In this document: in pieces, positions 29,945 to 49,150 of the stretch
Position numbering within the stretch: position 1 is the stretch's first letter
Layout: the number at the start of each line of letters is the position of its first letter
NCBI RefSeq assembly: GCF_004343725.1
Contig: NZ_PTQW01000016.1
Span: 1 to 64,000, forward strand
DNA length: 64,000 nt
Direction of reading: 5' to 3'
Origin: Treponema sp. J25
Lineage (GTDB): Bacteria; Spirochaetota; Spirochaetia; Treponematales; Breznakiellaceae
Position numbers and translations under genes: made by a program
Notes under the pieces: model-generated
Seen by the model: the letters and a program-made list of their open reading frames with translations, nothing else
Told to the model about the DNA's origin: nothing
Databases searched by the model: none

Positions 29945-32179
29945 ATGCCCGTTCGGACCTTTGGGTTTCTCGCAGCCCGCCTGGATGACCCCTATCAACA
30001 TGCGGTGTGGAACGGCGCGGCCGACGCGGCCCGCCAGTGGGGGGGAACCATCGTCTTTTTTGGTGGCCAGCGCCTCAAAAGTCCCATCGGATTCGAAGCG
30101 ATGGATAATATCGCCTTTGATGTGGCAGAGCGAAGTAACCTTTCTGCCCTGGCGGTTATGACCAATGTCATTGCCACCTATATAAGCCAGCAGGAGCTAT
30201 TGCGTTTTCTTTCCCATTTTAAGGGGAAACCGGTGATTTCCATAGGGGTTAATCTCCCGGGAATTCCTTCGGTGTGCATCGATAACCGGGGGCCCATGGA
30301 AGAGTTAGCAGAGCACCTGGTAAAAGTCCATAACCGGCGTCGTTTTCTCTTCCTGGCAGGCCCTTTCCGGCATCCCGAATCAATGGCCCGGCAAAAAGAA
30401 TTTACCCAGAAAATCAACAAACTTCTGGGACCGGAAAGCCAGGTACAGGTAGAATATTGCAACTTTCAGGAAGATGAGGCAAGCAACACCATCGCTACCA
30501 TCTTTTCCCAGAGCGTTCCCTTTGATGCGGTGGTAGCTGCCAATGATCAAATGGCCCTGGGGGCCCTGAAGACCCTTTCAGAATTGGGAATCTCCGTCCC
30601 CGAACAGGTGTCCGTCACCGGCTTTGATGATACCGAAGATAGCCGCTTCAGCATTCCCCCCCTCACCACGGTACGACAAAAGGCCTACGAACTGGGATTC
30701 CAGGCCATTAATCAATTAGCCATCGCCCTGGATACAGAGCAAGCCCCCCAGACCGTCATGCTACCGGGGGTATCCTGTATTTACCGGGAATCCTGTGGAT
30801 GTCGATCCCCGCATCTTACCGCTATAGATATCCCCGATGAACCCCTTTTTAAAGGAACCATGCCGGATCCTCTGGAACGCCTTGTGCACGAAGTGAATGC
30901 CACCCTCGCCCAGGGGAAAAACCCCGCGGGAATCGGCCATTACCATCTTACCCCGGGTCAGCAAGAACGGGCCCGAGTTATCGTTGCCGATGGGATAGCC
31001 CGGTATCAGGCAAATCTTCGACGTTCGGTAGAACGTCGGACCGCGGTGCTTCAAGAGATAGAGGCATCCCTGGTGGCATCCTTTTCACTCCCCGACATTT
31101 TAGCTGAAATAGGCCGGGGCATCCGAACCCTGGGCATATCTGCCTGCTGGCTTGTGGTGTTTGCCTCTTCCGAACCCCGCCCTGTATGGGGACGGCTGTT
31201 ACTTGCCGCAACGGGAGACCGGATCCGCATTCTTGCTCCCCGGGGGCTCCGTTTTCGCATCGCCGACATTATCCCCGGTGGACTTCCCTATCGCTGGGCC
31301 TCATACGTCTGTGAGCCCCTGCGATTTGGCAAAGAACGGCTTGGCTACTTTATCTGTACCGGCGATAGCGAAGACCGACGGGTCTTTGATGCCCTGCGGG
31401 ATCAAATTTCCAGTGCTTTGAAAGGGGCCCTGTTAATGGCCTCTGAACGAAACCGGGAAGAAGAGCTTGAACAGGAGGTGCGATTACGAACAATAGAACT
31501 TTCAAGGGCCAACAAACGCCTTATAGAGGAAATTGAACGGCGTCGGGCCCTGGAACAGGAACTGCTCGCCATTTCCCACGAAATCATGGGTCGCATAGGC
31601 CGGGATATCCACGACGATCTATGTCAGAACATTGCCAGTATCGGCCTTATGGCAGCCATTCTCGAAGGGAACCTTCGCCGCTTAGGAACCGCTGCCGGAG
31701 AAGAGGCCGCCCGGGCCGCCTCGGAAATTGCTGAGGAAGCAAGCCGCACCGCCCGCCACGCCAAGTATATTGCCCGGGGACTATACCCGGTGGATTTAGA
31801 GGACCGGGGTTTTATTGAAGCGGTCAAGGAACTGATTCACGCGGCCCAGGCCCGCAGTCAGGCTACCATTCAATTCCATGTAGAGGGATGTTTTTCTATC
31901 AAAAAATCAGATGTGGCCCTTCATTTGTACCGAATCATCCAAGAGGCCTTGAATAATGCTATTGCCCATGCTAAGGCTAGTAATATCACCGTATCCCTCA
32001 GAAAAATCCGGGAAACGGTCCTCATCGAAATTACTGATGACGGGATCGGGTTTTCCCTGCCCTCGAGTTCTGGCATGGGCTTACGAATCATGAAATACCG
32101 GGCCAGTGTCATTGGGGCTGAACTAGATATCCAGTCCAGCGAAAAGGGAACGACCATTATCTGCAGAATGGGGAGGTAA
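29945..32179 (+). CDS. Cytoplasmic LacI-like sugar-sensor histidine kinase
   Basis: A 744-residue protein with no signal peptide or transmembrane helix. Residues 1-285 form a LacI/periplasmic-binding-type sugar-binding domain without the DNA-binding helix-turn-helix (FGFLAARLDDPYQHAVWNGA ... FDAVVAANDQMALGALKTL ... VTGFDDTEDSRFSIPPLTTV), closed by a RESCGC motif. A GAF-like region (~365-495) and coiled coil follow, then a NarL-type HisKA_3 helix with phospho-acceptor His556 in GRDIHDDLCQ, and an HATPase domain (LYRIIQEALNNAIAHAKA, DDGIGF). It would read intracellular sugar and phosphorylate the adjacent LuxR-type regulator two bases downstream. Position before the xyloside genes suggests a pentose-related ligand (inference). 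Confidence 0.9.
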   Translation: MPVRTFGFLAARLDDPYQHAVWNGAADAARQWGGTIVFFGGQRLKSPIGFEAMDNIAFDVAERSNLSALAVMTNVIATYISQQELLRFLSHFKGKPVISIGVNLPGIPSVCIDNRGPMEELAEHLVKVHNRRRFLFLAGPFRHPESMARQKEFTQKINKLLGPESQVQVEYCNFQEDEASNTIATIFSQSVPFDAVVAANDQMALGALKTLSELGISVPEQVSVTGFDDTEDSRFSIPPLTTVRQKAYELGFQAINQLAIALDTEQAPQTVMLPGVSCIYRESCGCRSPHLTAIDIPDEPLFKGTMPDPLERLVHEVNATLAQGKNPAGIGHYHLTPGQQERARVIVADGIARYQANLRRSVERRTAVLQEIEASLVASFSLPDILAEIGRGIRTLGISACWLVVFASSEPRPVWGRLLLAATGDRIRILAPRGLRFRIADIIPGGLPYRWASYVCEPLRFGKERLGYFICTGDSEDRRVFDALRDQISSALKGALLMASERNREEELEQEVRLRTIELSRANKRLIEEIERRRALEQELLAISHEIMGRIGRDIHDDLCQNIASIGLMAAILEGNLRRLGTAAGEEAARAASEIAEEASRTARHAKYIARGLYPVDLEDRGFIEAVKELIHAAQARSQATIQFHVEGCFSIKKSDVALHLYRIIQEALNNAIAHAKASNITVSLRKIRETVLIEITDDGIGFSLPSSSGMGLRIMKYRASVIGAELDIQSSEKGTTIICRMGR

Positions 32180-32181
32180 AA

Positions 32182-32835
32182 ATGGCCTTCTATCCCTCTT
32201 TTATTATTGTGGACGATCACCCCCTCTACCGTCAGGGGGTAGTTACCCTCGTGCAACAGGAACTAAACCTAAAACTAGAAGGGGAAGCGGGATCCATAAC
32301 CGAAGCGTTGGAGCTATTATCCCAGCGGCGGGTAGATCTGGCCATCATAGATATCTCATTGCAAGAAAAAAGCGGCCTCGAGCTTATCAAAATCATCAAA
32401 AACGACTATCCGCAGGTAAAGGTCCTGGTGGTTTCCATGCACGAAGAATCCCTCTATGGAGAGCGGGCCCTGGCAGCGGGGGCCCTAGGCTACGTGATGA
32501 AACACGAACGTCCCGAGGTTCTTTTAAACGCTATTCGAACCGTGTTAGATGGCCGTATAGCGGTAAGTGATCATTTGCGGGACCGAATGCTTTCTGGCAT
32601 AGTGGGGGGGCACGCTTCCAAGGATCCCATAGAACGACTCTCAGACCGCGAACTGGAGGTCTTTCGGCTCATTGGCAAAGGATATAGCGCTGCGGAAATC
32701 GCCGAGGCCCTCCATCTTTCAGTTAAAACTATTAATGCCTATCGGGATCACATAAAAGAAAAATTGAATCTTAGCTCTGCTTCGGATCTCCGTCGCTATG
32801 CCGTCGATTGGATAGCCAGTAGAGAACGATTATAA
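32182..32835 (+). CDS. NarL/LuxR-family response regulator
   Basis: A 217-residue regulator, start supported by GGGGAGG 5 bases upstream. The receiver domain has Asp11/Asp12, phospho-acceptor Asp57 (LAIIDISLQEKSG) and the conserved Lys in GALGYVMKHE. The C-terminal LuxR-type helix-turn-helix (~150-205) reads LSDRELEVFRLIGKGYSAAE and LHLSVKTINAYRDHIKEKLN. It is the cognate partner of the LacI-like kinase. Likely targets are the xyloside genes around it, though no shared binding site could be identified by eye. Confidence 0.94.
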   Translation: MAFYPSFIIVDDHPLYRQGVVTLVQQELNLKLEGEAGSITEALELLSQRRVDLAIIDISLQEKSGLELIKIIKNDYPQVKVLVVSMHEESLYGERALAAGALGYVMKHERPEVLLNAIRTVLDGRIAVSDHLRDRMLSGIVGGHASKDPIERLSDRELEVFRLIGKGYSAAEIAEALHLSVKTINAYRDHIKEKLNLSSASDLRRYAVDWIASRERL

Positions 32836-46226: not shown

Positions 46227-46283
46227 ATGAGTAACCATGCAAGCTGGCCAGCTAGCCAAAACAAGTGTATATTTATTGTATGA
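46227..46283 (+). CDS. Possible 18-codon leader peptide
   Basis: ATG 46227, 12 bases after CGGAGG, opens MSNHASWPASQNKCIFIV and ends in TGA that overlaps the ATG of the next gene (ATGA). The downstream gene has no ribosome binding site of its own, so translational coupling through this leader would explain its expression. A 12-bp palindrome AGCTGGCCAGCT lies at 46242-46253 inside it. Could be chance. Confidence 0.3.
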   Translation: MSNHASWPASQNKCIFIV

Positions 46284-48591
46284 AAACCAAGGGGCCTCAA
46301 AGCATTGCCGTTCTTCTCAGTACCCTTGATGATGAATACCAAAAAAACCTTGTTTCCTGTTTTACCCGGGCGGGAGAAAAACGAAATGTTCATCTTTCCT
46401 TTTTTGCAGGCTATAGCCTCTGTTCCCCCTATGGGTACCAAGCTGCCAGTAACTCTATCTATGCGCTCATCCATCGACAGCGTTTTGCGGGAGTAGTTAT
46501 TAGCTCTACCCTTTTTACTTATATAGATGAAAATACTATTCATACTTTTCTCAGCTATTTTGATAAGGGACAGATACCGTTCATTATCTTTTCGTATCCC
46601 CTCTCGGGATACCCCTGTGTCCGGCTCAGTGTCGAAAAGGCTATCTATGTTGCCATTGAACACCTTGTCCAGGATCACGGAGTTAAACGGATAGGCTTTA
46701 TTCGGGGACCTAAAAACTCTGAAGAAGCCAATGAACGTTTTCTTGCGTACCAAAGGGGCCTGGAACGCTGTCAATTACCCTATGAACAAGATCTGATTCT
46801 TCAGGGTGATTATGGAAGGTTTAGCGGATATCACGTCATAGATGAGTATATCGCCACAGGTAAATCCTTACCCGATGCCATCCTGGCAGCAAACGATCTT
46901 ATGGCTCTGGGAGCGCTAGAATGCCTACAACACCATGGGATTGCTGTTCCTCAACAGGTAAAAATCATCGGATTTGATGATATTGGGGAAAGTGCTGTGT
47001 CTATTCCTTCTTTGAGCACAATCCGACAACCCTTGCAAGAAATGGCCACAGCTACCTTAGACTATATGAGTCAATTTCGGAACGAAGGGACAGGTACCTC
47101 AGCCCTTATGAATACCCCACCCTCCGAAATCTCTATCGAGGCATCGTTTATTCGCCGAGAGTCCTGTGGATGTTTTGATACATCTCCTTCTCTATCTTCT
47201 TTCTTTTTCCTTCTTCAGAAATCCGCCAATAACATTCTGCAGGTCCCCCAAGACATTACCTCTTTTCAAGAGAAAGGAAAAAACACCTTTCAAGACACTG
47301 AAAGTTCCTCTTACAGAACTATTGAAGGTTTTAGGGATAGTAAACTTTTACGTCATTTTGATACAGCCCTGGAAGAGGTACTAGCTGAGAAACGTCCTAA
47401 GAAAGAATTAAAGGAAATCGTGCTTCATTTTCTGCCGGAGGTATCTCTACTCGAATCCCATCTCCTTGAATTACAGAGGGTATCCTTCTCCTCTCAGGGA
47501 AACGGGCATTCTCAAATAAAGACAGCCCTAATCGCCGAACTTCTTTCCTATATTCATAAGGTAAAAGAGCGCGTTTTTTTACGACAATCCTATCTTTTTA
47601 CATTACACTTTCAAGAGTTCGAGTATGCAAGTCAGTTTATCACCGTGAGCTTTAATCTCCAGGATCTCATTACAAATCTAAAAAATACCCTTTCCCGGAT
47701 CCATATCGAGAATTTCTTTCTGTGTTTTTATTCCAGTACGGTACAGTGGGATAGAAGATTATCCTGGAAATTACCGGCAAAGTCAAAGATAATTCTTTTC
47801 TATAAAGATGGCGTACCCGTTTCTTCCTGGGAGAATAGAATGATAACGACGAGAACCCTGTACCCCAAGGACTTTTTAGCTAATAAAGGCTCTTCTATTA
47901 TCTTGCCCCTCTACTACGAATTTGAGTCTCTTGGCTACCTTGGCGCATCTCCTGTTCCAGAAGATACAATTGCGATGAACATCCTTCGAAGAGAGGCCGC
48001 CATGGTACTAAAAGGGACCCTAATCTTAGAAAAAGAAGAAAAAACAAAGGCGGAACTAAAAAAATCATTAGATACCATAAAGAAACTAAACCGGAAACTG
48101 CAAGGGCTTTCGATAATTGACGAACTAACAGGCCTGTATAACCGCCGTGGTTTTCTTACGGAAGCCCAAAAAGTATTTAATATAAACAAACGCAGTCTCC
48201 GTCCATGTGTTCTCTTTTTTTTCGACGTGAACGGCCTAAAAAAATAAATGACCACTATGGTCACGGAGAAGGGGATTTTACCATAAAATCTGTCGCCACG
48301 GTTCTGCAAAGGACCTTTCGATCTACCGATATCCTTGGAAGATGGGGAGGCGATGAACTCGTAGCCCTGGCCATTGATTGTAGCCTTGAAAAACTTCCCA
48401 TAATACAAAAAAGATTACAAGAAAACTTAGAAAGTATTAACGCAAAACTCCAGAAACCTTATGCTATTTCTTTTTGTTATGGGGTGGCAGCAACAAACCC
48501 AGAAGAGCCTGTGCCCCTTCAGGAACTTTTTGATATGGCGGATAAGAACCTATATGAGGAAAAGGACCGGTTTTATTTCCGCCATGAATAA
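46280..48591 (+). CDS. LacI-like sensor-GGDEF protein in two frames (frameshift at 48238-48247)
   Basis: The first frame encodes ~655 residues from ATG 46280 to TAA 48247; the second continues to 48591. Residues 1-~295 are a LacI-type sugar-binding domain without a helix-turn-helix (SIAVLLSTLDDEYQKNLVSC, DAILAANDLMALGALEC, IIGFDDIGESAVSIPSLSTI), ending in RRESCGC as in the kinase at 29945. A helical/GAF-like middle follows, then GGDEF: DELTGLYNRRGF and FFFDVNGLKK in frame 0, INDHYGHGEGDF and GRWGGDELVA in frame -1. GGDEF domains make cyclic di-GMP; the signature here is GGDEL. Frame 0 alone cuts the domain before its active site. Joined length ~770 residues. Confidence 0.85.
48238..48247 (+). 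other. A AAA AAA slippery heptamer followed by stop TAA
   Basis: The frame-0 codons are CTA AAA AAA TAA. The seven A residues (48238-48244) are in the X XXY YYZ phase for -1 slippage, after which the ribosome reads ATA AAT GAC CAC, restoring the conserved KKINDHYGH of GGDEF domains. Polymerase slippage adding one A would have the same effect. Confidence 0.7.
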
Positions 48592-49150
48592 TAAAGATAA
48601 ACCAGTCGAACAAAGCCGAATTGGCCGAAGTTTATTGCAATGGGATAATATCGTTTCCGAACAAACGCCCCCAGAAGAATCCATACCTACCTTTATCTGT
48701 GATGTTCACCTCGGAAAATTAAGTCGAATACTCCGCCTTCTGGGATTTTCAGTATATTATCGAAACGATTTAGAGGATCGAGAAATCGCCGATCGGGCCG
48801 CCGCTTCGTCTGCCATCGTGCTCAGTCGAGACAGGGGGCTTTTACGAAGGAAAAAGATTAGCCAGGGCCTTCTTCTTACCTCTACCGACCCCTATGAACA
48901 GGCCCGGGAGGTTCTCTGGCACTTTAACCTGCTCCCATCGGTTCGTCCCTTTAGTCGCTGTTCCCTCTGTGGGGAACCAATCAAACCGGTGCCCCGAGAA
49001 ATGGTATACCATCAGCTGCCAGCCTCAGTAAGAGACAAGTACCCTACCTTTTATCAATGCTCTGCCTGTGGGAAGCTTTTCTGGAAGGGGGACCACTTCA
49101 GAACCATGGAAGGCCTTTTAAACCGCCTTCTTTCTCCCAGGGCCGAGTAA
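48584..49150 (+). CDS. Mut7-C RNase-like domain protein with zinc ribbon
   Basis: A 188-residue protein from ATG 48584, which overlaps the end of the GGDEF frame by 8 bases; the longer frame from 48461 is only its shadow. The N-terminal half is a Mut7-C (PIN-like) domain with TFICDVHLGKLSRILRLLGF and the acidic AIVLSRDRGLLRR segment. The C-terminal half has two Cys pairs forming a zinc ribbon (CSLCGEP and CSACGKLFWKGDHF). The family is widespread in bacteria, with ribonuclease activity proposed but function unproven. Some members carry an N-terminal ubiquitin-like domain, absent here. Confidence 0.9.
   Translation: MNNKDKPVEQSRIGRSLLQWDNIVSEQTPPEESIPTFICDVHLGKLSRILRLLGFSVYYRNDLEDREIADRAAASSAIVLSRDRGLLRRKKISQGLLLTSTDPYEQAREVLWHFNLLPSVRPFSRCSLCGEPIKPVPREMVYHQLPASVRDKYPTFYQCSACGKLFWKGDHFRTMEGLLNRLLSPRAE

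Follow-up and report, generated by a model that had tools for sequence, protein, structure and literature searches.

A GGDEF gene in the draft genome of Treponema sp. J25 (3.18 Mb in 66 contigs) is broken at a run of seven adenines, and the locus raises the question of whether this break is a device for setting the output of a sensory enzyme or an accident of mutation or sequencing. In the 64,000-nt stretch of DNA analysed here (the window), the 5' part of the gene lies on the forward strand at 46280-48247, starting from an ATG with an alternative in-frame GTG start upstream of it at 46265. It encodes a sensor domain of the LacI-type periplasmic-binding-like family (PF13377 in Pfam, residues 132-301), a middle region that matches no Pfam family, a coiled linker and positions 1-45 of a GGDEF domain, and it ends in ...GGC CTA AAA AAA TAA. 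The A7 run forms an in-phase A_AAA_AAA heptamer at 48238-48244 (forward strand), directly followed by the TAA stop at 48245-48247. Coding then continues on the same strand in the -1 frame at 48244-48591 (stop at 48589-48591), reading INDHYGHGEGDF...GRWGGDELVA..., and supplies the remainder of the GGDEF domain, including an RSTD I-site and the signature GGDEL. The GGDEF frame shares its last 8 nt with the downstream gene, which encodes a Mut7-C RNAse domain (48584-49150, forward strand) and whose ATG lies in this overlap.

This anatomy agrees with the original prediction in every structural respect: frame 0 does stop at CTA AAA AAA TAA inside the GGDEF domain, between Pfam positions 45 and 46; the heptamer does have the X_XXY_YYZ phase relative to the 5' ORF; a -1 shift restores the GGDEF continuation, uninterrupted to 48591; and the read-through product, put at about 770 residues, comes to 655 + 115 = 770 by translation from the ATG at 46280. 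The Pfam GGDEF model is matched at positions 2-45 in frame 0 and at positions 46-156 in the -1 frame, and the joined domain (PF00990) scores 117.6 bits (E 6e-34) when read through. As the motif FFDVNGLKK needs frame 0 while INDHYGH needs frame -1, the A run is the only place where the frame can change. The read-through product contains FFD, KxxND, GGDE and the I-site RSTD, and on the Pfam match and these residues it would be classed as a putative diguanylate cyclase with a conserved GGDEF domain. Its signature carries L in place of F, and DVN and CYG stand for the usual DxD and SIG; GGDEL, DVN and CYG all depart from the consensus of the homologues, and these departures are found on both sides of the break. 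The G+C content of the region is 40-45%, compared to 50% for the genome sample. Re-initiation at the ATG at 48205, which opens the 3' frame, was considered and set aside, since this ATG has no Shine-Dalgarno match and its product would be only part of a domain.

Both sides of the break have the character of coding sequence. The codon-usage score per codon is 0.12 for the 5' part and 0.18 for the 3' piece, real genes having a median of 0.20, and the score of the 3' piece is far from off-frame values. In the 5' half of the GGDEF domain, identity to the homologues is 43-55%, compared to 43-59% among the homologues themselves; in the 3' half the corresponding values are 33-44% and 39-50% (the among-homologue values leave out one close pair, L083/L087). 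Judged by these values, constraint seems to act on the 3' half no less than on the 5' half, and there is no clear decay. Its preservation means that the break is recent, or that it is an artefact, or that the product is still made, slippage making the break tolerable.

The original prediction proposed an alignment of orthologues to see whether the A7 run and its stop are conserved, and the comparison found them conserved nowhere, be it in 200 genomes of the family, in the five closest homologues or at 37 GGDEF motif sites. No orthologue of the protein or of its middle region was found in the 200 family genomes, in which the genus is represented by one genome only, and a Megablast search against plasmids gave no match. 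The five closest LacI-GGDEF homologues, from the same order, are 28-35% identical, and the two of them that are full length are 28-31% identical. Each of the five is read in one frame throughout and has no A7, the motif taking forms such as DGLKLIND and DGLKKVND. The 37 distinct GGDEF motif sites, taken from the same genome and its relatives, are likewise all single-frame, with an A run of at most 6 at the motif, and no other GGDEF domain split by a frame change was found in the genome itself. The break is thus unique to one genome while its homologues are intact, and the site lacks the conservation by which the GeneTack survey mainly recognises programmed recoding (PMC3711429). With respect to synteny, a Mut7-C orthologue occurs elsewhere in two relatives, in neither case with a GGDEF gene, and no orthologous site was found in them, either empty or intact.

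The phase of the heptamer had been put forward as that of programmed -1 frameshifting. This hallmark is not rare: 464 kb sampled from the same genome contain 59 in-phase A_AAA_AAA sites in 345 genes. The A7 runs of this sample fall about equally often into each codon phase (34, 30 and 32), so that A_AAA_AAA in phase is not avoided. The gene itself provides an internal control, in that a second in-phase CTA AAA AAA (48056-48064, heptamer at 48058-48064, forward strand), 180 nt upstream, is read normally. Two unrelated genes, for a solute-binding lipoprotein and an oligopeptide-transport ATPase, have A_AAA_AAA followed by a stop as their natural end, and no coding continuation was found in the -1 frame after either of them. 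The phase of the heptamer and the stop directly behind it are not independent coincidences, but a by-product of the codons involved: when an A run coding for Leu-Lys-Lys-Ile-Asn changes its length by one base, both arise of necessity. This is a caution for searches for slippery sites: where a conserved Lys-Lys-Ile-Asn is written in AT-rich codons, the loss of one base yields a seemingly perfect slippery site.

We consider it probable that the break is a non-programmed, one-base frameshift, either a recent indel or a consensus error, and this also makes the "dull alternative" of the original prediction, sequencing error or simple mutation, the best supported reading of the locus. In this explanation, the A run coding for the conserved Lys-Lys-Ile-Asn would have changed length by one base, putting the cyclase gene out of frame, either through a recent slipped-strand indel that was fixed in, or sampled from, the strain, or through a consensus error in the draft assembly. 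Normal translation would then yield the sensor and the first quarter of the GGDEF domain, presumably without diguanylate cyclase activity, while a small amount of full-length enzyme could arise by incidental ribosomal or polymerase slippage on A7. The gene is most likely an accessory sensor cyclase with an ordinary singleton frameshift. By published criteria, a singleton frameshift that homology confirms should be an error or an indel mutation (PMC3711429), and our case is alike to the singleton frameshifted genes of GeneTack in having a break that is validated by homology and Pfam, occurs in one genome only and lies at a homopolymer; there is no difference of substance, although the slippery phase is better than usual here and a small hairpin is present.

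As to the two possible origins, we regard a real indel mutation as about as probable as all other accounts taken together, and a consensus error as a possibility that we hold more tentatively. Among the junctions listed for the 464-kb sample, no further strong break in frame coincides with a run of at least 7, although the junction score threshold in one 464-kb scan also excluded the focal junction itself. A generally homopolymer-prone assembly is thus unlikely, and the lack of further homopolymer breaks in the sample shifts the weight towards a real indel, with one isolated consensus error as the less probable account. A comparable case is VF_1515 of Vibrio fischeri ES114, in which a GGDEF domain is likewise shortened by an apparent frameshift; there, the frameshift was found by resequencing to be a sequence error, while the present one is known from the assembly alone (PMC2330054).

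A different use of the same one-base change would be phase variation, in which reversible changes in the length of the A run turn the cyclase on and off between cells. The gene is otherwise intact, the break amounting to exactly one homopolymer unit, and a switch that acts by gain or loss of a c-di-GMP enzyme would be plausible. However, 7-8 units make a short run by the standards of contingency loci, and with 211 A/T runs of length 7 and 56 of length 8 in 464 kb, the focal run is not special; the proposed A7/A8 switching also lacks its key evidence, as there is no repeat at the site in any homologue. We consider phase variation very unlikely.

Programmed -1 ribosomal frameshifting, in which the A_AAA_AAA heptamer and a downstream hairpin would fix the ratio of the short sensor to the full-length cyclase, is about as improbable. 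It does have the in-phase heptamer and the preservation of both coding halves in its favour, as well as a candidate stimulator: the original prediction proposed to look for a stem-loop 5-9 bases downstream, and a 6-bp hairpin with a 3-nt loop (UGACCA-CUA-UGGUCA, 48249-48263, forward strand) lies there at a shorter spacing of 4 nt. This hairpin, which falls within the DHYGH codons and might be a weak stimulator, gives the first 22 nt a folding energy of -6.3 kcal/mol, a value that is reached by 3.3% of synonymous recodings and at 0 of 41 homologous sites. As several features were tested, we take this signal to be suggestive at best. The hairpin is small and closely spaced, and the structure over 77 nt is no stronger than in intact homologues (-21.3 compared to a mean of -21.0, matched by 6.7% of synonymous recodings); nor is there a Shine-Dalgarno-like sequence in the 25 nt upstream of the heptamer. 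Read on the minus strand, this hairpin together with the T-rich tail behind it (48248-48264 of the window) scores as a terminator-like site, which is probably a coincidence of the DHYGH codons with the A run.

Results on slippery sites in E. coli bear on this in both directions. A single A_AAA_AAA (7-A) cassette gave 10% frameshifting (PMC3711429), while A_AAA_AAA shifts less well than A_AAA_AAG (PMC5009743). That cassette belongs to the magnesium chelatase -1 frameshift cluster, which likewise has sites of the A_AAA_AAA type; there, however, the site is conserved in 23 genes from six genera (PMC3711429), whereas the one studied here is conserved in no homologue. A regulated frameshift therefore lacks its key evidence, with the heptamer being common in the genome and not avoided, and we infer, rather than observe directly, that the A7 break is not programmed. 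Apart from the heptamer and the small hairpin, nothing positive speaks for programmed frameshifting or for phase variation. As A_AAA_AAA does shift, if weakly, and the cassette reached 10%, it is nonetheless plausible that frameshifting occurs here incidentally, at one to a few percent and without any programme, and the small hairpin 4 nt downstream leaves room for such low-level shifting. A related proposal, that the gene, which is found only in this genus, carries a lineage-specific recoding switch, with the heptamer and hairpin setting how much of a sugar-type sensor is linked to a c-di-GMP-making domain, strikes us as equally improbable. If programmed frameshifting were true, it would, as far as a limited literature search shows, be an undescribed way of tuning a c-di-GMP enzyme.

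Slippage of RNA polymerase, adding a base in a fraction of the transcripts, is very unlikely. It is true that A and T runs are where most transcript insertions arise (PMC5574713), and that slippage has been published as rescuing a gene, Citrobacter rodentium tssM1, which is likewise interrupted near a poly-A tract and yields short and long products (PMC4256274). However, tssM1 has a long uninterrupted run of 11 A's and an experimentally shown slippage of about 20-25% (PMC4256274), while the present gene, known from sequence alone, has a run of 7, which is short for slippage, and A/T runs of 7-8 are abundant in the genes of this genome, as expected if they are harmless.

Some further observations concern related genes. 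The close pair left out of the identity ranges above, L083 and L087, consists of intact LacI-GGDEF genes located near each other (genome G397, contig 201, 105-2300 and 5175-7376) in another family of the same order; their sensor domains are about 66% identical. In genome G000 (contig 24, 31220-32812; L024, L029 and L030), two GGDEF genes are adjacent, and one of the GGDEF matches is split by a short gap that lies inside one open frame and is not a frameshift. Within the window, a LacI-type sensor domain is also found fused to a histidine kinase (29945-32835), adjoining a LuxR-type response regulator; this sensor domain is a paralogue of the one described here, with 35% identity, and has counterparts in two relatives, G015 and G017. 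Further upstream, at 1680-2317, two short overlapping genes resemble, by their sequences, a Phd/YefM-type antitoxin and a PIN-domain toxin.
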